A program made the translations under genes and the position numbers. A stretch of DNA of 64,000 nt from NCBI RefSeq assembly GCF_021155765.1, contig NC_060107.1:6868501-6932500 (forward strand), written 5' to 3'. The DNA is from Diprion similis (taxonomy: Eukaryota > Arthropoda > Insecta > Hymenoptera > Diprionidae). The notes beneath the pieces were generated by a model. The model saw only the letters and a list, made by a program, of their open reading frames with translations. It was not told where the DNA came from and made no database searches. Every line of letters begins with the position of its first letter. Position 1 is the first letter of the stretch. Positions 28,812 to 62,500 of the stretch are shown here, piece by piece.

Positions 28812-31800
28812 TCATTTACCACCTTGTTGAGCCTCTGACAATAAAGTACGTGATATAATCATTCTTTGAATTTGTGCTGTACCTTCGTATATTTGATAAA
28901 TCTTAGCATCTCTCATTAGCTTCTCTACAGGGTATTCAGTGTTGAAACCACAACCGCCAAATATCTGTAAAAAATTACACGTTGAAACTTAGTGATTATA
29001 GCTATTGATGATTAGACACTAAGTAGGTTCAAATCAAATGTAAAAAACTGAACTCTTTATACAAATTAGCATTGTGTATTAATGAATATGAATAAAAACT
29101 TTTTATGCAATGCGTATTGAATATACAATTGTAATTCCGGAACAAACCTGTACTGCATCTGTGGCGCACTTATTAGCTACATCTGCGGCATAGCATTTAG
29201 CAATACTGGCTAAAAAGGTATTCCTCTGGCCGTTATCGACAGCCCAAGCAGCTTTCATCCAAGCTAGTCGAGCTGTTTCGATTCCAATTGCCATATCAGC
29301 CAACAGGAAAGCTACAGCCTGATGTTCGGCAATAGGTTTGCCGAAAGTTTTTCGTTCCAGAGCATACTTGGTAGCTTCGTCCAATGCTCTCTGCGCTAGT
29401 CCGACTGCACCAGACGCAACCTTGCAATCATGAAATAGTTTTCAAAGAATATGTAATTCCACGGCGCAATTCTATTACAGAAAAATGAATGAATGGTTAC
29501 CGGAGGACGAGTTTTGTCGAAAGCTCCCATTGCAATTTTGAAACCTTGACCCTCGCCAAGCAACACATTCTCCGCTGGGACACGTACGTCTTCAAATGTT
29601 ATCATGCGGGTATCAGATGCTCTTTGCCCCATATTCAATTCCTGAAAGTTTTATCGCTGAACGTTAACTTTCTACCCGTGAGGTAATAAGTAACTCATCA
29701 AATTATCAAACTTACTTTACGTCCAGGAGTCAGACCCGGGGTATCCCGTTCAACGATGAAACCTGTGAATGCCTTACTAGCCGATACTTTAGGATCTGGA
29801 TTAGTGCGAGCCAGAACAAAGTACCTAAAAAAATGAAAAAGTTGAATAGGATTAGAGTTTTTGTCATTTTGCTACAACCTAAAATTCACATCAAATCAAA
29901 AATGCCTTTAAACAACCAGTTATGGATTTTCAGTAATATTAAATCTCTTACCACCTTTCCCTTTATTAGAATTCATGAACTATTTCGGGCTTAAGTGAAT
30001 TTCGGAGTGCTTAAGATTGTACTTGCTAGATTTTAAATACATCTAGATAAATTTAAAGAGTAAATTTCTACTCTCAACATTACCAATTGGCAACACCGCC
30101 ATTTGTTATCCACATTTTAGTTCCATTGATAACCCATTCATTTCCTTTTTTCTCTGCTCGAGTTTTAATGGCGCTTACGTCAGATCCAGCACCAGGTTCA
30201 GTTACACAGTAAGCCTGCCATGAACACATCATTATTAATTTATTTACTTATTATCATAGTCTGAAAATTTCAATTTATCTCTTGGAACTCTTGGAAAAGT
30301 TATTCACGCGTCTCAGTACTTTTGGACCACTCTGTATGAAATATATAGCACAGACCTTGGTATTCAAACTATAATTTGATTTTAAAAACATTGAAATTAG
30401 AAGAAAATTTTTTTTACTATTTAATTTCTTATGCTAGGTAGTAAAACATTAGTAGACTAGTATAAACTATGCATAGAAGAACGACACACTCTGGTTCCTG
30501 AATAGAAGGTTAACTTACCGCTAGAAGTGGTTCATCAATGAGTCTTCCCAAGTATTTTTTTTGTTGTTCTTTGGTTCCGGCAATAATAACAGGCATTTGC
30601 TGTGTAAATAATTTTAATATATATTTAGGAAATACGGAATTGGCTTTGAAAAAATAACAATGAAAGCAATAATGTTTATATGACTAGGCAAAGGTTGTGG
30701 TTCAGCAAAGTGATACCCAGGTAAACTTGAACATCAGACTGAGAGACATAACAGATGGTGCACAGGCATTCTCATTTAAACTGCAGCAATTTCTTACATC
30801 AAACAAAAAAGACAGTGAACATCTCTTTTCTTTCCCTACTTCGAATCCTCACCTGCAAAAGCTAGCAAGTACTGATACTATTTCAAAAATTAGAAACTGA
30901 AAATAGCAGAGTGAAATTTTGTGGATAAAGTTTAAAAAACATAAATTCACTAATTCAAGACTCTGCTGTTATTTATCAAAGAATCCGATATGCAAGTACC
31001 GTCGATCGTGGAGAAACGATGTTAATGTTTCGAATTAATTTCTAAGTTAGTAGACAGACAGACAAATAGATTGGATTTCCATCTTGAGCAGAATGAACTT
31101 ACACCGAGACCTGATCCCTCCATTGCAGTCTTTATCCCCGTACAGCCATAGGCAAGCTCTTCTGCCACCATGCAACCATCAAAAATACCACACTCTAATC
31201 CTCCTGGAATGTACCAAAAGCCATTTAATGTATCACATACCATGGCTATTTTGGCATATTGTACGTTTTGCGTTTCGATGTTGAAATTTCTCTTTATCGG
31301 GTAATTTTTTTTCCCTAATATATTTATTTGATCCACAAGTAAATGCATAAAATATTTAATATCGCTTTGATGCCGAAGTAATACAATCCAACAAGAAATC
31401 GACACTGACAGTAATGATATGATAAACGACGTTCAAATCCCTTCAACATGAATACATATACCATCTCAAGAACTATGAATTGCGATGCAGTGTTAGATTT
31501 CCGAATGCCACTTACTCCTAATTTTGTAGATCCAATGCCACTGGCAATACCAGAGCATCCGTATGCAAGTTCCTCCCCAATCATACAAGAATCAAACGTA
31601 TTCATTCCGATACCTCCTGAATGTCAAAATAGTACTGTATATAATGTAAGGACATTGTTTGATCTATTGCTTTGCAACGAGCAACAAGTATTTTACTCAT
31701 AATTTCCTATAAATAGTATTCTGATTGTTTTGTTGACATAAGATTCATTCAGTAATAGTGCATAATTGTAAAGTGACCGAGGACATAAGAGTAAAGTGGC

Positions 31801-33750
31801 CATGATAATTTGATGAACTAAACATTAGGGAAAGCCTGTAGAATTGTCGTAAATATAAATTAAGCTTTTGTAGCAAGTAACTATGTAAACTTGTATAATT
31901 TGGTAACAATCGAAAGGCCACAAACAGCAGAAGGAGGATGAGATGAGTCACAATGAAACGGGCTGAGTGCTCCATAAGCTTACATGAAATTTTTAAGAAC
32001 TCTTTTCATTATCCTCTGGCAGAAACTTACTCCTAAATCTGTGGATCCAAGACCACCGGCTATGCCAGAACATCCGTATGTAAATTCTTCACCAACCAGA
32101 CACGTCTCAAAAATACCTATTCCCATTCCTCCTGAAGATTCAATTATAACGGAAAGTCACCATATTAATTTGGCTGTGACTGATCGAATTCGACACATAG
32201 TTGAACAATTTCATGTTGATTTAGTTACATAATAATTTGTAGAAAAGTGAAGTTAAAAACGTGCGATTATGCAAAGTGGATGCTTCATATCGATCTTCTA
32301 AGTTATTTGACCGTGGTAAACTATCAGCATTTATTATTGTTTAATATACACATTCCGTGTGATGGTGAAAAGAATTTATTGCGGTATTCGGTCTTTGTTA
32401 GGATACAGTACAAAAATTGACGTTGAGAAATACTGTTCAATTTTAGTCTCGATAAATATTTTGTAAAAAAAAACAAATGCAGATACTTATACGAACAGAA
32501 GTTTTAGATTTGGACGGATATTTGCCTTTCATTGTACCGCATACATAAAAAAGTTGTATTTGACCTTGAACAGGTGCGTAGATTCTCATGTTTCAAATTA
32601 AATTTTCAACCATCCATGCTAAATCAACATCAAAATATACTAAATCTTCTAATACATTATCAGACTATAGTTCAAATATCTTGACCTTGTTGTTTTGGCA
32701 TGACAAGTCATTTATTACCAGATATCTTATAGAGCGATCATTGTACCACTATTCTGATTAGATAAATATTACAAGAAAACAGATTGGGGCAAATTTGATT
32801 AGCAGATATATAATAGAATAACATATCACAATGGGCTAAAGTTTAAAACACACCTATGCTCCTGATTATTTCAATCCGAAATCATGAGTTTTTCAAAAGG
32901 TTCAAGATTTAAATCTTAAATGGTGGAAACGCTCAACGTTTATCTAAACAAAAATATTAATGAGATTATACTACGCTAGATGTTTGAAGAAATTTTTCAA
33001 TGTGTACAACAGTTTTTATCAGAATCAATACGAATTGATAAATGTATTATCAAATTTGTAGAGTTTTTTTGTCCAAAAAACTCGTGTAATATATGTTATA
33101 TACGCATCTGAAATATCGCATCATCGAAAGAACATTCTTAGCCAATAATATTTAGAACATACCGCAATGCTGTGGAATGTGTCCATTCATGAGTCCCAGG
33201 CCCCAGGCTTTCTTGACAACTTCCCATGGGAATTTTCCCGTTCTATCATGCTCTGCAGCTACAGGAATTATTTCTTCTCTTGTGAACTTCCTGGCAAGTT
33301 CCTGCATTTCACGTTGTGTATCGGAAAGCTCTGGATAAAAAATATATCAAAATCGATTCTGGATTAATTCTGTACTGTAATCAGGGTTTAATTAAGCAGA
33401 ACAGTTCTATTTAGTTTATAGAAAGTAATGCATGCGGTACTTGAAATTTTTGTCATCGGATTACTTATTATGCTAAACTGTTAAAATATAATGTAATTAC
33501 AGTAAAAAATTGATACTAACGAAAACTGTAGCCATTTGGTACTGCAGCTTGAGAAGAGAAGGATCTGACCGCTGCTTGTCGCACTGACCTACTAATCACC
33601 TGCAATTGGACGAACAAATGAAGGAAAAAAGTTTGGAATGGCTGATGACGATGAAATTACGCTGAATAATATTTCATGCTGTGCGTAGTCTTGAACATTA
33701 ATGGAAATAGAAAACGTTCGAAGGGGAAATTATACCTGGCTCAGAGACAT
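28812..33750 (-). CDS. ACADM: medium-chain acyl-CoA dehydrogenase, mitochondrial
   Basis: FAD enzyme catalysing the first step of mitochondrial beta-oxidation of medium-chain acyl-CoA, passing electrons to ETF. Ten coding exons (minus): 33736-33750, 33521-33599, 33163-33330, one of three alternative exon 4 copies (32031-32131, 31516-31616 or 31103-31203), 30519-30599, 30084-30214, 29716-29824, 29501-29641, 29148-29420, 28812-28964. All phases agree and the product is 416 aa (human precursor 421). The N-terminus [19 protein letters not shown] is Arg/Ser-rich and lacks acids, as in mitochondrial presequences. Seen motifs: TEPGAGSD (about 153-160), WITNGG with the flavin-contacting Thr (about 185), and the catalytic-base Glu in IYEGT (about 393). 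A Cys replaces the usual Asn in IFGGCGF. Start ATG at 33750 was chosen because its 5-codon exon ends in CAG|GTATAA in the right phase; this tiny first exon is the least certain part. Confidence 0.96.
30688..30900 (+). other. possible coding fragment inside an ACADM intron (opposite strand)
   Basis: Between ACADM exons 4A and 5, the plus strand has an open frame of 71 codons to a TGA at 30900 that begins right after a TAG (30685-30687), which could be a 3' splice site. The product is not low-complexity: it runs [18 protein letters not shown] and later [19 protein letters not shown] do not recognise it. It could be the last exon of a nested gene, a retrocopy fragment, or chance. Confidence 0.25.
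31103..31203 (-). CDS. ACADM: ACADM alternative exon 4, copy A (canonical type)
   Basis: A 101-nt exon between TTCCAG and GTAAGT, entering in phase 1 and leaving in phase 0. It encodes (G)[19 protein letters not shown] then [14 protein letters not shown], matching the human segment almost residue for residue. It keeps the Thr and Glu (T-A-M-E) that in mammalian MCAD are Thr96 and Glu99 of the acyl pocket. It is the copy closest to exon 5 and the one most like ordinary MCAD. Confidence 0.92.
31516..31616 (-). CDS. ACADM: ACADM alternative exon 4, copy B
   Basis: A 101-nt exon (ATTCAG before, GTAAGT after), with the same phases as copies A and C. It encodes (G)[19 protein letters not shown] then [14 protein letters not shown]. 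The FD.C......EELAYGC core is conserved, but the pocket segment reads [10 protein letters not shown] instead of QTAIEGNSLG, so the pocket Glu is Gly and an added Lys appears. It is open throughout with intact splice sites, so it does not look like a dead copy. Confidence 0.9.
32031..32131 (-). CDS. ACADM: ACADM alternative exon 4, copy C
   Basis: A 101-nt exon (CTTCAG before, GTAAGT after), with the same phases as copies A and B. It encodes (G)[19 protein letters not shown] then [14 protein letters not shown]. Like copy B it has CSGIA.G.GST.LG in place of the canonical CTG..TA.EG..LG. Copies B and C are closer to each other than to A, suggesting an A/B-type duplication followed by a second one. 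It is the first copy in transcription order. Confidence 0.9.
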
Positions 33751-41108: not shown

Positions 41109-44100
41109 CTAAGGTTCAAGACGGACTCGTTTAAAGCATTCCGTTGGAAGAGCTAATTTAATAGTTTCTATATTATCAACTTCAAGTTTAAGCCTTTCGA
41201 CTTCTTCTTCATAATTTTTAACCCACTGAATTTGAACATTTTTCGCCAGTGTCAAGGCACGAATTCTTTCATCCAAATTAGCAGCTTTTATTTGCTCCTC
41301 AGCTGCATTAAGTCGTTCTTCCAAACGATCCAAGTCTGCCTCGTCTAAAAATATGCAATGTTATAGTAAATTATTAAAAAACCATATAAATTTGTATATC
41401 ATCCACGAATACTATATGTATAAATATAATTTTCTCAAATAAAATGTTTTATGCTGTTCACTAGATTATTGTTTCTTTTCTGACACAACTTACTTATTTC
41501 GGGCAAAGCCTCTAGTTCCTTTATAATCTCTGCTACTTCTGTAAGTGCTTTATCAACTTGTTGGGATGCAACACCAACATTGGTTTTCGATTGACCGACC
41601 TTTTGTTTCGCCTGGTTACAAAAAATAAACATAAACATTATTTTCTTGTGGTACTCTTCAAGCAAAATCGAAATAATCGAGAAATTATTGTTGAACAGAA
41701 GAATATTATACATATTTTGTCTACATTAAAATCTGACCTCGCTAGTAATGTTAGCGTCCCTAGCTGCCTGTTCTTCTTGTTCCTTGATAAGACTCTCTGT
41801 GAATCCTAGCCTAAGTTGTAGGTTTGCTGATTCTTGACCCAAAGTAAAGGCTTTGGATTTTGTTCGATTCGCTTCATTCCTGATTCTATTGGCATTTTCA
41901 CTTGCTTTATTCGCGTAGTTTTCCTGGAATACTTACAGTTAGTATCTTCTCAACTTTAGAGTTAAATAAAACATTGTATTTATTTACCTGCGCTTCTTTA
42001 GCGATATTCCTTGCCTTGACTGCATTAACTTCAGCTCCATTCAGAGTTTGATCAGCTGATTTAGTTTTGTTAAAAGCTTCTTCAATCAGTTTTCTGATCT
42101 CGTCAATGTCACGCAAGGATGCTTGTGCTATCACTTGTTCTCGTCGAACTTCTTCGTCAAATTCTATGTAAAACATGAATTGTAAGTTAGGAACCATCCA
42201 ACAAATTAAAAAAAAATTGATGATTCAGTTATATGAAATCACACTAACCGCTCAATTTCTTGTGCGTTTCTTGGGCTTCTTTAAGAGTGTGATCACCCCT
42301 TTTAACAGCTTCATCAACCTTTGCATTCGCATCGTCCGCTTCCAAGAATAGTTCGCCAATCGCTTCTTGTTGATCTCTCGCTCTTTCCAATAACTTTTCA
42401 CTGTTCAAAATTTTCTCACTTATTTCTCTCAGTAAATCATCATTGTTTTCAAGTAATAGTTGCGCTCGCTCTTTTATGCTCAATCCCTGTAATATAGACA
42501 GACGATATAACTTATGAGATAGCATGACAATAACAATGTTCCACTCAAGTATACGGCAAAGTAAAACCATAAGAAAAAAAGACGTATGGAATGTAGACGA
42601 AAGTGGAAAAAAATTTGAACTTTGGTAAAATCTCACCTCGTTACTGATGATATCGGCTTGCCTTTGAAGTTCATTAATATCAATGGTTGGAATACTAAGA
42701 TTTACAATTGATATCACCAATGCTTCTTTTAGAACTGAGGCAGATTTATTAGCTGTAATTTTTGTGAGATCCTTGACTTTATTAAATTTATCCTTGAGTG
42801 ACTGGAGTTCATTATCCAATACTCGAATCTCATCGCTGATGGAAAAAAAAATGTATGAATACGAAAACCATATAAATTTCTTGTCAATGAATATTCACTG
42901 TATTCAATAGATGTTCACCAATTGAAAAAATTTTCAAACTAACCTTATGTTGGTATTTTTATACATAGCTTGTTTTGCCAGATTATAAGCTTGCAGTGTT
43001 CTATTTTTTGCATTATTTGCAATGTCATAAACTTTCTTAGCTTCGTTCGTGTTACTGTAAGAATATTTCATTTAAGCCTTAGAAATAATTTTCATATGAT
43101 TCAAACGAGTTTTATTACAAGTCATATAGGTATATTCAAGTTTCGCCGCATAGTTTTAGCTGTATTTAGATGAATAAATGCTTGAGCAAATGAGAGAAGA
43201 TATTAAATACATAGTTGTGTATCACAAAACGCGTTGTTGGTAACTTACATATCCGCTAGTTCACGTGCCTTCTGCGCAATAGCGGTCATCTGATTATTTT
43301 GCTGGCCAACTTCCTCGGCTCTTTTTCTAGCATCTTCTAGTGCAGTTCGGCCTTCAGTCGCTAAATAAGCTTCAGCTTCCTGTGGTTAAATGATTTAGTT
43401 TGCATTGATGCGTGACTACGTTATTCGTTAATGCTACTTCAAAACTATAAAATAATAGACTTACAGACAGCTGTTCGTGAATTGTATCCAACACTGTTTC
43501 GGCCTCTTCAATACTCATTTGGCCATCAGTAGCGGTCTCGTTAGCTTTGTCAGCAATAAATTCGACCTCACGTGAATTGTCATCTATCTCGTTCAGAAGA
43601 TTACGCAAGTCATCCAACTGTTCAACTAGAGATTTCTCGTCGCCTAAAAGATATAGAATTTCATTTGTGAGAAATTCATCATTTTGAATAACAAAAATAC
43701 AAACTCTGCTGAAAGCAATATAGATACCACATACTTCCAGAATTTTGTTGAGCATTTTGTAACAACGTTTTGACACGATCTTGAACGTTCTTTAATTCTT
43801 TTTCAAAGTCCGTATCCTTTTTAAACGCAGTTTGAGAGCCACCGATTTTTCTTAATGTATCTTCTAAATCATCTAATCGTCTCCGATGCGCATTTATGGC
43901 ATCTTGAACCAGGTTGTAACAAGGAGGACAGTCTATACATCCACGCTGCCGGTCATACTTATTTTCTTTGCATCGATCACAACGTCGACCTTCCACATTT
44001 TGTAGACACTAACAAATAGCAGGAAGTTCGTTAGAATAAACTCAATTGCCTTGCTTAGTACAGAATGAATAACTTACTGGGCACTGCCCATCTGGACCAC

Positions 44101-47100
44101 ATTGCAATTCTTGTGAACCAATTTCATCGCAGTCACAGCGCTTGCATCCTTCATTACCAAATCCGTATTGGTAGGGCAAACAGGCATCGCAACGTTGAGA
44201 TGTTACACCAGGTTTACATTGACATTGTCCTGTCAGTGCGTCACAAGTCCGACCATGCGATCCTTCAGGGTCACAGTTACACGGAGCGCAACCCTAAAAT
44301 ATGTGTTTAAACAATATATATGAACTTGAGTGACGTATCACTCTTGAATCTGAATTAGCTAAAAATTCCAAGAAATTACCTCTCCGCTAGCAATATTATA
44401 ATATCCGTCCTCACACTTGTCGCAGTTATGGCCAGTCACATGAGGCTTGCATCTACAATAACCTGTCAATTGGTCACACGGAGCAATACTTCCGTCGTCA
44501 AGTTCCTGCGTGCCTGGAGCATAACACTCACACGCTACACAGCCATCCTCTTTACGATCAGATAAGGCATCACCATAATATCCTGGAAATGGTCAAGAAA
44601 TATTTGTGGAATTGCCTGTTATTATGCAAATGAAAAACTTTTTCACATCAAAGAAAATGCAAATTGTAGATTACCTGGAAGACATTCCTCGCAGTTAAAG
44701 CCAGCTGTGTTGTTCACGCACTTTAAACACTCTCCCGTAAGTTGATTACAGTTTCGCACCGCATTCAGGTCGATATTGTTATTACACTCACAAGGCTTGC
44801 ACTTTTGGTTATTTTCAGGGTCACCAAAGTAACCATCAGAGCAAACTTCGCAGCGGGCACCTGTGATCGAATGTGTTTATTCAGTATTCAAGTATATGTT
44901 GGCATTATACAATATGCTACTAAATATACATGTTAATGATTTTATGCTTCCAGTATCGTATTGACAATTATTATACTACTATGACTATAGTATTATATTC
45001 CACTATTGTTGGATACGAACCTGTACGTCCTAGAGGACATTCCGAACAAATTGGGTCGGCATTATTATCAAGTAGAATGCAATGTCCTTGATCTGGGCAA
45101 GGGCATGGTTTGCAATCATCAGCTGTCCCCTTTAATGGGTACCCATAATATCCACGTTGACAGTGCTGACAATTATCTCCCGAAGTGTGATGCTGGCAAA
45201 TACACTGGCCTGTGGATAATTAGCAGGAGAAAGTTAAAATTATTGCATCGATTTCCGATTGTACTTGTAAGTCACCGGTTTTCACCAATGACGATTTCTG
45301 CATACTGGTCATATTGGCGTTAATGCAATACGCACCTGTTTCAGCTTCACAGATGTCGGCATGTCCGTTACAGTTACACGGTACACAAAGCGCGAATGGA
45401 CCACCGTTTGAGGGTTCATGGTGGAAACCTGGCGAGCAGGATTCACAAAATTGACCAATGTATCCCTGAGGACAGGTGCAGTGCTCTATCCAATCCGCCG
45501 GTTCACCAGGCGCGCCACGATGTGCTGTTTCTAGCATTACGTCATCCAAGAATCCTTTGCCTGTAGTGCATGCAAAGAATTATTAAAAATACAAGCTTTA
45601 CAGAAAAAAATGAGTAAATCTTGATTACCTTTGTGAGTGTAAGTTCCGCGGATTTTGATCGCGGTCAAATTAGACAATACGGACATGAAATCTCGCGATG
45701 ATAATTGCGGAAGCCAACCATAATCAGGATGCTCGTGCAGTCTAAATCTGTATTCCATAAACTGTGGAAAAAGTGTGAATTAGGATAGCATCAAACCCTA
45801 GACAATGGTGTTTCGATAATTATATACGTACTACACCAGACGGCGAAGGGTTGTTCTGTCCGAATATTGGTTGGGCAATCGGCTGCCCATTCCTTCCTTC
45901 AAGAATTACGTCACGTACCGTTGGTGCCGCACCTCTATCTCCTATCCTCAATTTGAAAGTCAGATCTTGATTGTAAGACGCACGTTGATCGCCGAGAAAT
46001 CTGTCTACAAGAGACATGAGTGATCAAAATATTATGAACAACTTATAACTCGATTGACATTCACATTTCACAAGTTTTACACTTACCAGGTGCAACGAAA
46101 TACACATCTTCACGATCTTGGGCTGAAACACTGATAGATTGTGTCAGTGAGTCGTAATTGAGTGGTAAACGTCTGCCATTGACTTCCGCTGACCAGCGCT
46201 CGGTACCTCTAGCAAACATGCTCTCAATAACAACTTTAGAATATCCAGATTCAGACTCACAGACTGATGAATGCCCATAACAGAAGCACGGGGTGCACCC
46301 GAATACATTTGAAAGAGCAAGATTGAAGAAGCCAGGACGACACCTACGGGTGAAGGTTGAGAAGTTATTACAAATGAGTGGATGTTGAGTGAAAATTGAA
46401 TAAAATATAATTTTGAAGTAACTTTAAAAAAAATTTCAAATTCGTTATTTGATTGAAGCTGAATATCGAAGTCCTTACTCGCGACAACGTTTTCCTTCAA
46501 CATTTTCCTTGCACTGGCAGTCTCCGGTGTGTGGGTCACATCTTTCAACGTTACCCAATGAACCAGCAATGTTACACTCACAGGAAGTACAACCAAGTGA
46601 TCCAAAGTTATAAAAATTGGGAGCACAACGATCACATTTGTCTCCGGTGACACCAGGTTTGCACTGGCACTTGCCTTCACTGTTACACTGCAAGCTTCTT
46701 GAACCTGTGAAAATCGAATACCGTAATGAAATAAATGATATTTTGATTGAAAATAGTATGTTCAAACTCTATTTCCACAATTGTAGCAGATTCCTATCTG
46801 ATTATCACAAAAGCTATGATTCACTTACCAGTTTCATGACAATTGCAAGGAATGCAATAGCCGTCTTCAGAACGTTCGTAGAAATTTTCACGACATCTTT
46901 CACAATTAGCACCGTCGCGATTCAAATTACAGTCCAAACAGTGCCCTCCGTGTCCAGTAGCTTTGTACAGTTCATTATCAAAGTAACATCGATCTGAGTA
47001 GCCGTTACAGTTGCAAGCTGATTTTGAGAAAAGAAATGCATTTAATTAAGAATATTACGTAGGTATAACAAACCATGTAAAGTGTTAAAAATCAACGAAA

Positions 47101-57546: not shown

Positions 57547-58323
57547 CTAAGGCGATTCCGTCGACTCGTACCGAAAGACTTTGTCAAAGTGAATTTTGAG
57601 ATCGTTGAGACTACGGTAAACGTCGCGATGAGGTAGTTTCGTGTTATCAGTTGGCTTTTTGTCATCACGTTTGATCAGTATAGCATTCCATTTGGCGTTT
57701 TTGGCACCAAGATAATCCTTGTCGTACGTATCTCCGATGTGTACGGCTTCATGGGGTAGAACCGATCTATCGCAATAACGTTTCGTTATTTTTAGAGCCT
57801 CTTCAAATATCAATGGATCCGGCTTTTCCGTTCCAAGGTCGTAAGAGGACAAAACGAAAGAAAAATACGGGCGCAATTCGGTGCTGACGAGTACAGACTC
57901 TAGACGAGCATCAAAGTTGGATATGACGCCGAGTACGACATTCTTCTTCTTCAAGTAATCGAGTATATTGAGCGTGTCGGGATACTTGTGCCAGCATTCA
58001 TTCGTACTATAACATTCGATCAAAGTGCTCGCCACCTTGTCGAGTGCCTTTTCGCAAGTGTGCTCGTTTTGCTCTCGGAAAACGTTGTGCACTATGGTTC
58101 GCCACCAATTCTCCCATCCAAGTCCCGTGTGCTTTCCGAACACCGGATGATCCGCCGCCAGTTTGTTGAAGTTCTGTTTGAAACTTCCCGCCAATTTCCT
58201 AGGGTCCACCGACAGCCCGTATCTCGATCCTACTTCCGAGTAGTGAACCTCCAACCCCGTCATGAGCAGAGTTCCCGTCACGTCAAACGTGACTAAACGC
58301 GGTCGTATAGCGTTCATTGTCAC
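57547..58323 (-). CDS. HDHD3: HAD-like hydrolase, HDHD3 / Reg-2 family
   Basis: An intronless gene of 258 aa (human HDHD3 251; Drosophila Reg-2 is similar). HAD-fold motifs are visible in order. Motif I is FDVTGTLL with the nucleophile Asp at 14. Motif II is VISNFD with Ser135. The motif III Lys is at 167 (TEKPDP). Motif IV is HIGDTYDKDY (Asp198, Asp203). The cap region includes GWENWWRTIV, like the WW segment of HDHD3. The usual second Asp of motif I (DxDxT) is Thr16, as in Drosophila Reg-2 (DVTNT). Phosphatase activity is therefore uncertain and the substrate unknown. There is no targeting signal. An in-frame Met at position 3 is an alternative start. Confidence 0.93.
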   Translation of the reverse strand: MTMNAIRPRLVTFDVTGTLLMTGLEVHYSEVGSRYGLSVDPRKLAGSFKQNFNKLAADHPVFGKHTGLGWENWWRTIVHNVFREQNEHTCEKALDKVASTLIECYSTNECWHKYPDTLNILDYLKKKNVVLGVISNFDARLESVLVSTELRPYFSFVLSSYDLGTEKPDPLIFEEALKITKRYCDRSVLPHEAVHIGDTYDKDYLGAKNAKWNAILIKRDDKKPTDNTKLPHRDVYRSLNDLKIHFDKVFRYESTESP

Positions 58324-59583
58324 CCTGTATTTTTATGAATTTTTAATACTGCACAACTTCAATTAACTCGGACTTTCACGCGATCAAAACACAAAACCGC
58401 CACGGATTTGCAAATCTATTGAGAAAAAAATGAGCTTTCATTTTTTATTCCCACCAGTGCTGCCAACGCTTGCAGAAATGGCCGCCTTTCGATACTTGTG
58501 CGCATCCACGCGCGCATCTTCTACGTCTTGTGATGTCATACTATTCCCCCGTGTAGCATGCCTAAATCATAAACATATTATCACGGAATTATGTGATTTT
58601 GTACAAATTTACCTACCGATTCTATGAATATTTTTTTTTTATTACAAAGGTCAGAAATTCATTTCTTACAATCTACATTAATTCCAGCGTTAAGTGACCC
58701 AGAAGAACTTGTGCGTTAAATTTAGGATCACGTGATTCTGAGCAGCGGAATTTTTGAATAAATAATCTTAGATAATTTGTTATTTTTCCTAGTTATTATT
58801 ATAATGATACGGAATTATGCATCAAATTCGATAGTAAAACTTTTGTGTTGAGGCTCAACAACGATGGGAATGAAATTCGATTTTCGTGTAGAATAACTAT
58901 AATATGTAATTACTCGAACCAAAGGCTTTACAATGCTCAAGCCAGGTAATTTTTAGGGAAACAGGAATAGTTATTTTTCAGGAAACAGGGAATTTTGGTC
59001 GTTTTAAAATTTTTCAATTGTACTCCAAAAATATGTTCATATTACAGAAAAAAAAATCACCTGTTAATGTAAAGATTTTCATATAATATTAAGACGTGCC
59101 AGGGGGAGATCGACATTTTTATTGTAACTGAAAATTTATACTGAATATTTTGTTGAAAAAATTAATTTGATGCTTGAGAACCATGTTTATATTTCCAACT
59201 AAATGTAGGAACAAAATAACTTGAGATCAGCGCACATATTCCATAGATAACGACGCTCACTTAAACCACAAAAATTACGGTTTTGTGAAGTACGGTAGAG
59301 TTTTGAGATTCAATGTATTTCTTTTTTGGTCCTGTGTTCATTTGGAAATATAAACATTGTTCTCAAGCACAAAATAGGGGTGTTTCAGGGAAAAATTTAC
59401 TGCATTAGGGTACACTTAGGGAAAAGCTTCAGTTTGAGTGTGCTTATAGGGGATGAAAAAAAAATTAGGGTACCTTCAAGGAAATAGGGGAACCACTGTG
59501 AAGCCTACAACCAATAAAATGTCTCGACTACACCCAATTTCCCAAGATTGTCAATCGATTCAATTCAATTTCAATTCGAATGT
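58324..59583. other. intergenic region with a foldback element
   Basis: This is the promoter side of the HAD gene (58.3-58.6 kb), then AT-rich DNA. A foldback element lies at 59171-59369. It is flanked by repeated short words of the type AGGGAAA/CAGGGAA (58950-59010 and 59390-59500), suggesting transposon-derived sequence over about 58.9-59.5 kb. Confidence 0.5.
59171..59369. mobile_element. foldback / MITE-like inverted repeat
   Basis: TGCTTGAGAAC-ATGTTTATATTTCCAA begins at 59171, and its reverse complement ends at 59369, with about one mismatch in the first 27 bases. Similarity continues inward (AGGAACAAAA against the right arm) and CACAAAA/TTTTGTG flanks the centre near 59275. No protein is encoded. 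It is about 199 bp. Confidence 0.65.
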
Positions 59584-62500
59584 TCAATTTTTATAATATC
59601 TATGACGAGTGCTCGCTGGTTTGATATTCGCAGTCCTCTGGGTTGTCTGTACCTGCATTGGAGTCAAATCTGTGCCATTCTTACTACAGAGGTCCAACGT
59701 GTATCGCAAGAGAACAATCTTGTTTTCGTCATATATTGCATGTTCCTTTTGTAATGCGAGTTGAATTTTACTTTTCAAAATATGGTATATATTTAGTTTG
59801 CCTTTGTGGAACAAACTAGAATAGTTCTGAAATAAAAAAGTACATTCTGTTGACATAAATCATATGATCAGTCACAACTAACAATGAACATTTTGGTTGC
59901 CTAACTTTTTCCACAACAAGTATTGCTAGCATTGGTTCTATGATAGTCTATTTATGCTGCAAACAGGGCCAAATAGAATGCATTTCTCCTTTTTAATTCA
60001 AATTAGGCACACTTTACAGATGTTCAGTTAAATATCAACATCTTGAAACATCTTTCCTACTAAAAAATATCTTGAAAAAATAACACAATCATCTAAAACT
60101 ATTAAAAAAATGAGAATTCAGTCCTGGTGTCCTTCTCTACCCTCAGAATTTTTCATAAAATCTAAATCTAAATAGTTCTCCAACAGGTATAGGTTCTGAT
60201 TTTTTTGCAATATATTCAGTCGAAAATGTTCTAAAATGACTTGTACAACATAATTATGCTAATAATTGATAACTATGCGTATATAGTTATATATATTTTT
60301 TTGACTCACTGTTAGCATACGGGCATCTGACCGAATTTCAATGGCTTTAGTAAGATACTGACATGCGGACGGAATATCATTCAAAGATAAGAGATAGTAT
60401 AATCCGATTTCGATATTTATACATTGAATGATATCATCAGGATTTTTGTCATATTTCTTCAACAAACCCATCATATATGGTAGTGGGTCCCATTCAAGGT
60501 GAACTATCCGCTTACATTTTACAAACTGCCATTCCGCACCAAAAGTGTTTCCTCGCGTTGCAGCTTCGTAGTAAGGAAGAGCAGCCTGGAAACATAATCA
60601 AAAACTAATTATTGTTTATTTCTACATACTTAACATATTGCATCTCCTATTGCAGAAATGTTTTTTAACTCGATATATCATCTATATGTACTAATCAAAT
60701 AAAATTTGGTATAATATTTTTATTTGACTCAATATGGGCAAGAGCTGTCAGATACGTAAATAGTAAACTCGTGATAAACAGATCAGCAGTTACTGTGCAT
60801 AATTTTTTACTCCTGACCTGATAATCCTGATTGCATTTGTCCTCGTATAAACCCATATAATGAGCATACATAGGGTGGTTTGGCATCTTTTGACGTACGT
60901 AATCAAGACACTCCTTGGCCAGCCTATAACTGTTTCCCCGAATAAATCCTAGAGCTATTTTCAGGCGTACCGTGCAACAACTTGGATTAAGAGCGTAAGC
61001 CTCTTTGTAGATTTGATTAGCGTCAACAAAATTATTACTTTCTTTATACATTTGGGCCAAAGATACGGTAAACAAAGGTTTCTTAGAAATCTTGTAAGCA
61101 GTCTGAAAGGCTGATGCTTCTTCGGGACTTGGTCGCTCTGTTATCGATACAATCTTCCTTCTCAATCTCCTGTAACTCGTTCCCAGCAAATAATGCCACT
61201 TAGCATTACCAGAATCGTACTCCAAAGCTTTTTGAATACAGCTTATCGCTTTTGGAATGTAAGTGGAGTAATACAATGACCAAGCCATACATTGACATCC
61301 TTCCAGCATACCCAATTCGGTATTACATGTATAGTCGATATCGTATATTCCTTCCAGTAATTCGTTTGCCACTGTTAACTGTTCCATTTTTAGTAGGACA
61401 CAGTATTTCGTTCCCATCAATATATGTCGTAAGATGTTTTCCTCATTTTTCAGAGTATTTCTGAAATGATAAATAATTAGAATCATGATAATGGTAACTT
61501 TTCCGTAAACAACACATTAGTTGCTATTGGCATAATACACGTATAAAAGATAGCCTTCAACTTTTAATAAAGTAATGTTGTAGTTGGCATTGTTGAATCA
61601 ATAAAAAGTGAAGCAATTAGATTGTGATTTCTTATAAGATCTATAAAAAAAACAATAAGTTTATATATTTCATTGCATGTTGTTTCCTAAATTTAACGAA
61701 ACAATATCTATGATGTTGCTACGAACTTTTCCTCAATAAGAGCAAATTGTTTTTCTGCATTTACTACATATTGCATGCTAATCGAGGGATCGTTGCCCAT
61801 TGTGCTTTCGTAGGCCAGCATGAGAAGATAAATTAGCAAATATTCTGGAAAATCATCCCCATAGTCGTAAAGCAGTTGCAGACAACCTTGTCTCGAGAGC
61901 TCTGATTTTTTCCGGTCTTCAAGAATACTTTCCATGCCCCAGGTGAACGGACAACTGAGTTTCGTTATCGGTTTATCATCGGCACCTAAACTTTTGTGTG
62001 ACGAATCTCCTAAAACAAATGCATTGGACTTACAATTGGATATGAGCAATAAGTTATTATATTACTTATTATTAATACGAAAATTTTTTTTGAATTTGTT
62101 TCTCAACGATTACACTTGAAAAATATTTATCTTCGTATAAGAGGGTCAGTTTCTTGACTTACAGTAAAAATTTCCGAACGTAAGTATCATTGAATCAATC
62201 GTAATGGATACAAGCCTTATTCTCAGTGTAAAAATGATATGTTACTTTAAATTGTAACATGTCAGAAATCGTACACTAAATTCATCTAAAATATTTAACT
62301 CCATTTACTTTGAGAAAACAGGACAAAACGGTAACAACACCGGAAAGCCATCTAGAACCAAGCGCGACACTGTCGAGCTCCTCTCACTTAATTAATTGAA
62401 AGTTAATTAATATTAACGTTATAACATATTTCATTACAACTTTAGTAGGTCCTCATAGAATTTAAATAGGAAGAAACCAAAAACTAATAACTATTTATTT

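Follow-up and report, generated by a model that had tools for sequence, protein, structure and literature searches.

The window analysed here is a stretch of 64,000 nucleotides (nt) from the hymenopteran Diprion similis (RefSeq assembly GCF_021155765.1, contig NC_060107.1, positions 6,868,501 to 6,932,500), the minus strand of which carries a complete ACADM gene, coding for medium-chain acyl-CoA dehydrogenase (MCAD), that begins with an ATG at 33750 and closes with a TGA whose last base is 28812. One internal exon of this gene is present in three tandem copies, 4A (32031..32131), 4B (31516..31616) and 4C (31103..31203), located between constant exon 3 (33163..33330), which ends in phase 1 with one base of a Gly codon, and constant exon 5 (30519..30599). 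Taking sequence, gene model and homology together, each copy is predicted to encode a helix of the acyl pocket, which reads IAGGLGST in 4A, IASGIGST in 4B and IKTAMEGS in 4C, the copy nearest to vertebrate MCAD, with Ala95/Gly99, Ala95/Gly99 and Lys95/Glu99, respectively (MCAD numbering). The other exons of the in silico gene model, all on the minus strand, are the coding part of exon 1 (33736..33750), which starts with the ATG, encodes MSLSQ in an open frame, ends at a GT donor and is the probable start exon; constant exons 2 (33521..33599), 6 (30084..30214), 7 (29716..29824), 8 (29501..29641) and 9 (29148..29420); and constant exon 10 (28812..28964), which ends in the TGA. The YEGT motif of exon 10 aligns to YEGT of MCAD and presumably holds the catalytic Glu376 of that enzyme.

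As computed from the sequence, 4A, 4B and 4C are each exactly 101 nt long, have the same phase, and possess their own AG acceptor and GTAAGT donor, a donor sequence that is also found at two of the eight remaining donors of the gene. The introns separating them measure 414 and 312 nt. A first, sequence-only reading of the window had described three homologous 101-nt exons here, and direct reading together with in silico assembly bears out their coordinates, phases and AG/GTAAGT boundaries. Their homology is equally clear. In tblastn comparisons within the window, run with composition correction off, the copies match each other without gaps over all 34 residues, with E values of 5e-14 (4A-4B), 1e-9 (4B-4C) and 8e-9 (4A-4C), the next best unrelated place in the window reaching E 0.12. 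The similarity stops at the exon borders: the flanking 25-base blocks have just 4-14 matches between copies, the intron flanks do not align past short words, and the repeat between 4A and 4B delimited by a repeat finder is 112 nt, that is, the exon plus a few bases. These values also leave next to no room for an assembly artefact or a chance resemblance, for which nothing was found: with 76, 57 and 53 of 101 bases identical in the copy pairs (52-75%), the copies have diverged more than a stretch duplicated in assembly would, and the range of E values argues against chance. In the whole genome (269 Mb, 60 contigs), searched by a method that scores only the candidates of a fast first look, the 4A peptide matched only these three places at E<=1, with 4C at E 0.004, and no fourth or decayed copy stood out in the window or the genome search.

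Features by which mutually exclusive exons have been predicted in earlier work are similarity in length, in splice sites and frame, and homology; on the fly X chromosome, 0.56% of non-exclusive exons (90/16,180) share these features (PMC3228551). Copies 4A, 4B and 4C agree in all of them, being of equal length, alike in splice sites and phase, and homologous. In addition, the reading frame allows a full protein only when a single copy is included. Of the eight splice combinations assembled in silico (three singles, four multiples and the skip), the three singles are all open for 416 amino acids, while the other five stop early, after 125 (4A+4B), 123 (4B+4C), 123 (4A+4C), 125 (all three) and 108 residues (none). 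The earlier proposition that only single inclusion gives a full enzyme is thereby confirmed, as are the anatomy, homology and frame logic behind its interpretation of the cluster as one of the mutually exclusive type. An actual choice of one copy by the cell is what the frame logic predicts, and judging from the DNA the trio is very likely mutually exclusive in splicing. The early stop in all five wrong combinations would also suit a cluster that serves quantity control, where multiple inclusion or skipping generates decay-targeted transcripts and hence less enzyme. Decay-based control, however, would need no three divergent intact copies, and we think it very improbable as the explanation of this locus.

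As for the splicing mechanism, introns of 414 and 312 nt are long enough for normal splicing, and steric exclusion through very short introns was set aside because of these lengths. The choice would instead be regulated by splicing factors, with the wrong products, once shifted in frame, being removed by decay, which would keep exclusive splicing exact. Human ACADM offers a precedent: whether its equivalent exon is included is reported to be governed by an enhancer and a silencer close by (PMC4932749).

By sequence, the product would be an MCAD whichever copy is included. The 4A, 4B and 4C isoforms each match the three Pfam acyl-CoA dehydrogenase domains (N, middle and C-terminal). With 4A alone used as the query against solved structures, the alignment to MCADs has an E value of about 1e-190 over residues 24-407, and the six best matches are MCADs (best 60 of 122 matched sequences considered); the 4C isoform has 73% identity to pig MCAD. 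Of the 22 NCBIfam models listed for isoform 4A, the only isoform compared with them, none reached its cut-off.

Which part of the enzyme is exchanged had not been addressed in the sequence-only reading. By homology, the swapped exon would be the helix closing the acyl-chain pocket. Residues Q95 and E99 of mature MCAD, which correspond to Q120 and E124 of the human chain, lie inside the exon, and according to Kim et al. (1993) and McAndrew et al. (2008) they reportedly close the acyl pocket of MCAD. At the aligned positions 95/99, pig and human MCAD have Gln/Glu, 4C has Lys/Glu, and 4A and 4B both have Ala/Gly, to be compared with Gly/Gly in human very long-chain acyl-CoA dehydrogenase (VLCAD) and Gly/His in human long-chain acyl-CoA dehydrogenase (LCAD). 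The MCAD helix length is unchanged in all three copies; its core is IAGGLG in 4A and IASGIG in 4B, and IKTAME in 4C, where the MCAD acid E99 is kept. Ala95 and Gly99 are common to 4A and 4B despite 25 base differences out of 102. Structural work has reported that VLCAD has glycines where the active site of MCAD has bulkier residues, which makes room in its pocket for chains of up to 24 carbons (PMC5798300), that the VLCAD pocket reaches 12 Å past the MCAD end (PMC9237092), and that the LCAD cavity is widened by unwinding of helix E at Pro132 together with small residues nearby (PMC11153573). Thus, a radical change common to 4A and 4B sits at the pocket end, the site of the published MCAD/VLCAD difference, and because of the Ala/Gly at 95/99 seen in the alignment these two isoforms would be MCADs whose pocket ends much as that of VLCAD does. 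As to medium-chain preference, Glu99 is kept in 4C and absent in 4A and 4B.

On these grounds we consider it a fairly probable reading that mutually exclusive choice among three 101-nt exons switches the acyl pocket of one MCAD, with 4A and 4B shifted toward longer or bulkier chains. One ACADM gene would then give rise to three mitochondrial acyl-CoA dehydrogenases by inclusion of one of three homologous exons, each choice exchanging the pocket-closing helix. Isoform 4C would have the classical MCAD pocket with Glu99 kept, while in 4A and 4B the small residues Ala95 and Gly99 would make a deeper or wider pocket, as in VLCAD, in an otherwise identical enzyme, and this pocket would admit longer or bulkier acyl-CoAs. 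With slightly more doubt than belief, we extend this to the proposal that splicing lets one MCAD gene handle both medium and long acyl chains, 4C serving the medium and 4A/4B the longer or bulky chains, perhaps by tissue or life stage, in a genome in which a fragment query revealed no separate LCAD gene.

Natural variation at the two positions was surveyed in prokaryotic relatives, of which 80 were fetched; the count uses the 20 whose identity is 47% or higher, the alignment of the other 60 being less certain in this region, and 10 of the 80 have a gap at position 95. Position 95 is A in seven of the 20, G in four, S in four, C in two, and Q, T and Y in one each; position 99 is E in seven, G in six, M in three, D in three and N in one. 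Six of the 20 (L010, L011, L013, L014, L016 and L018) have A or S at 95 together with Gly99, which shows that an enzyme can carry the residues seen in 4A and 4B. Among these six are four bacterial MCAD relatives of 50-54% identity (Chloroflexi, Chloroflexota, Caldilineaceae and Promineifilum) with Ser95 and Gly99, and two archaeal ones (L016 and L018) with Ala95 and Gly99. Such prokaryotic enzymes are natural comparators for 4A and 4B.

Several observations weigh against a pocket switch operated by exclusive splicing. On the splicing side, competing RNA pairing was not above controls, since 35 to 51 of 60 shuffles reached the observed score in each of four layouts (ungapped helices, one genome); inverted repeats occur in the introns, according to a listing made with no shuffled control. 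On the pocket side, position 95 is not conserved as bulky (A, G, S or C in 17 of the 20 relatives, seven of these 17 having Glu99), and position 99 is Glu in just seven of the 20. In all seven relatives with Glu99, residue 95 is small; of the two positions, 99 is thus likely the more informative, which weakens the simple story. LCAD, a longer-chain enzyme, carries His at aligned position 99, which means that long-chain enzymes are not generally marked by Gly99, and the glycine-rich helices of 4A and 4B could instead weaken the enzyme. Selection on the individual copies is modestly supported: synonymous sites are close to saturated, or beyond it, in comparisons with 4C; in a simple neutral simulation the exon stays open in 27-42% of runs and the observed amino-acid identity is reached in 6-42%, depending on the pair; and the bias in codon positions described below, although it fits coding constraint, is weak alone.

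The variability of positions 95 and 99 among relatives would also suit a different role for the exons, in which mutually exclusive splicing is real and tunes stability, contacts with the electron transfer partner, feedback by CoA esters or the use of branched substrates. The copies differ from each other at 13 to 18 of 34 residues, and thus beyond positions 95-99 as well. Yet a radical change that 4A and 4B have in common is placed at the pocket end, where the structural papers locate the difference between MCAD and VLCAD, and we consider such a role unlikely.

With respect to age, 4A and 4B are the closer pair, with 21 of 34 residues identical and a synonymous divergence (dS) of about 0.54, while 4C is distant from both (16 and 17 of 34 residues, dS 2.4 or saturated). 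With pig and human MCAD, 4C shares 21 and 22 of 34 residues, more than 4A and 4B do (15-19). Among the 20 prokaryotic relatives, 11 give their best score with 4C, six with 4B and three with 4A, and 4C is therefore probably the ancestral type of the exon. The same figures would be expected if 4C were the sole working exon, with 4A and 4B as ancient tandem duplicates, seldom included and yielding hardly any functional enzyme or none, an explanation to which the neutral simulation also lends itself. However, 4A and 4B retain exact length, frame, AG and GTAAGT, as well as identical altered pocket residues, and the exact length, phase and splice sites of the copies add to the case for constraint. 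The differences between 4A and 4B fall largely on the first and third positions of codons (9/2/14 at positions 1/2/3, p 0.013), avoiding the second position (2/25), and 7 of the 13 replacements have a positive BLOSUM62 score; the corresponding counts are 13/10/21 for 4A-4C (p 0.11) and 11/12/25 for 4B-4C (p 0.022). We doubt that 4C works alone.

In splicing terms, the trio fits a known class of exon cluster. The arthropod clusters of Dscam1 and muscle myosin heavy chain likewise consist of tandem homologous internal exons of the same length and phase with a constant exon on each side; here, in contrast, the gene encodes a metabolic enzyme, competing RNA pairing was not found above shuffled controls, and exclusive use is predicted from DNA. 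To our knowledge no mutually exclusive exon set has been described in an acyl-CoA dehydrogenase gene, as the sequence-only reading had also stated, and searches of an open-licence library, which covers part of the literature, brought up no report of one, although one review (PMC12318918) mentions both ACADM and mutually exclusive exons; automatic annotation of this species may already list such isoforms.

The exon itself is probably old. Its peptide covers human MCAD residues 96-129 and, with the same split codon, corresponds to human c.287-387, which is 101 nt. Human ACADM exon 5, presumably a single copy, probably runs exactly c.287-387, and by residue numbering the trio exon overlaps it. 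The borders are thus probably common to this animal and man, which makes the triplication the special feature here. A splicing silencer and enhancer are reported in human exon 5, in which c.350-355 and c.362 lie (PMC4932749). The fly Mcad (CG12262) is described as a medium-chain enzyme on the basis of mutant acylcarnitines, in a paper whose main text does not use the word isoform (PMC12341901).

In working principle, the nearest case is nematode COQ-2, in which an exon swap also takes place at the active site of an enzyme: two mutually exclusive exons were found experimentally to change active-site residues and thereby switch the substrate (PMC8659336). COQ-2 is, however, another enzyme in another pathway, has two exons rather than three, and is an experimental result, whereas the ACADM trio is a prediction. 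In FadE1 and FadE2 of P. aeruginosa, a few exchangeable pocket residues likewise set the preference for medium or long chains (PMC11890623), but these are separate bacterial genes. Compared with VLCAD, which has Gly at both positions 95 and 99, and LCAD, which has Gly at 95, the 4A and 4B isoforms are MCAD in the length of the helix and in the remainder of the protein, and come from one gene rather than from separate ones. They end at 416 amino acids after the standard domains, without the extra C-terminal domain of VLCAD, an enzyme that also binds membranes, and the Pro132 near the start of helix E in LCAD is absent, Ile being found at the aligned position in 4A, 4B and 4C. The two isoforms may, then, work like VLCAD while not being members of that family.

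Beta-oxidation is usually taken to handle different chain lengths through separate genes (SCAD, MCAD, LCAD and VLCAD). If the reading of the trio as a pocket switch is true, an insect could retune its fat oxidation by splicing, with the amount of enzyme unchanged, and ACADM would join COQ-2 as a metabolic enzyme gene in which the choice between mutually exclusive exons exchanges the substrate pocket. The functional prediction is unusually direct and testable: nature would here have set up its own comparison, in three isoforms, of how a single helix determines chain length, in a gene whose human counterpart, ACADM, causes MCAD deficiency.

The genome was also searched for other acyl-CoA dehydrogenases. 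The whole 4C isoform identifies a single MCAD locus, with nine exon matches of 93-97% on contig C3 and a match of 44% to exon 4B. A second MCAD gene was not found in this search, the other acyl-CoA dehydrogenase matches falling in five loci with 25-48% identity. By their motifs, three of these are probably SCAD (L104), IVD (L106) and a short/branched-chain enzyme (L107). A VLCAD-like gene (L105; G000:C10, 7160800-7165500) contains GVGITLGAHQSIGFK, which is identical to human VLCAD over the pocket stretch, including its GVGITLG, the compared stretch being the basis of the VLCAD label. No separate LCAD gene was found with a 102-residue LCAD query, which matched six places, all in already known loci; as only this fragment was used as the query, the absence of LCAD is weakly supported. 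Among viral contigs, 15 pattern matches included no relative.

The remaining locus (L103:920-2842; G000:C1, 4710919-4712841) is a single-exon ACAD9-like gene, the best solved match of which is human ACAD9 (2e-90). In the alignment it has YNES where the human protein has FEGT, the Glu of which we assume to be catalytic. The catalytic Glu thus appears to have been lost, and the protein could be an assembly factor devoid of dehydrogenase activity.

Rfam gave no matches in the window. Several further long open frames lie on its minus strand. One, at 57547-58332, encodes a haloacid dehalogenase-like hydrolase (Pfam PF00702), and another, at 60695-61516, has matches to tetratricopeptide repeats. Two further long open frames without a Pfam match, at 42244-42894 and 46144-46761, resemble what we take to be laminin-chain exons.

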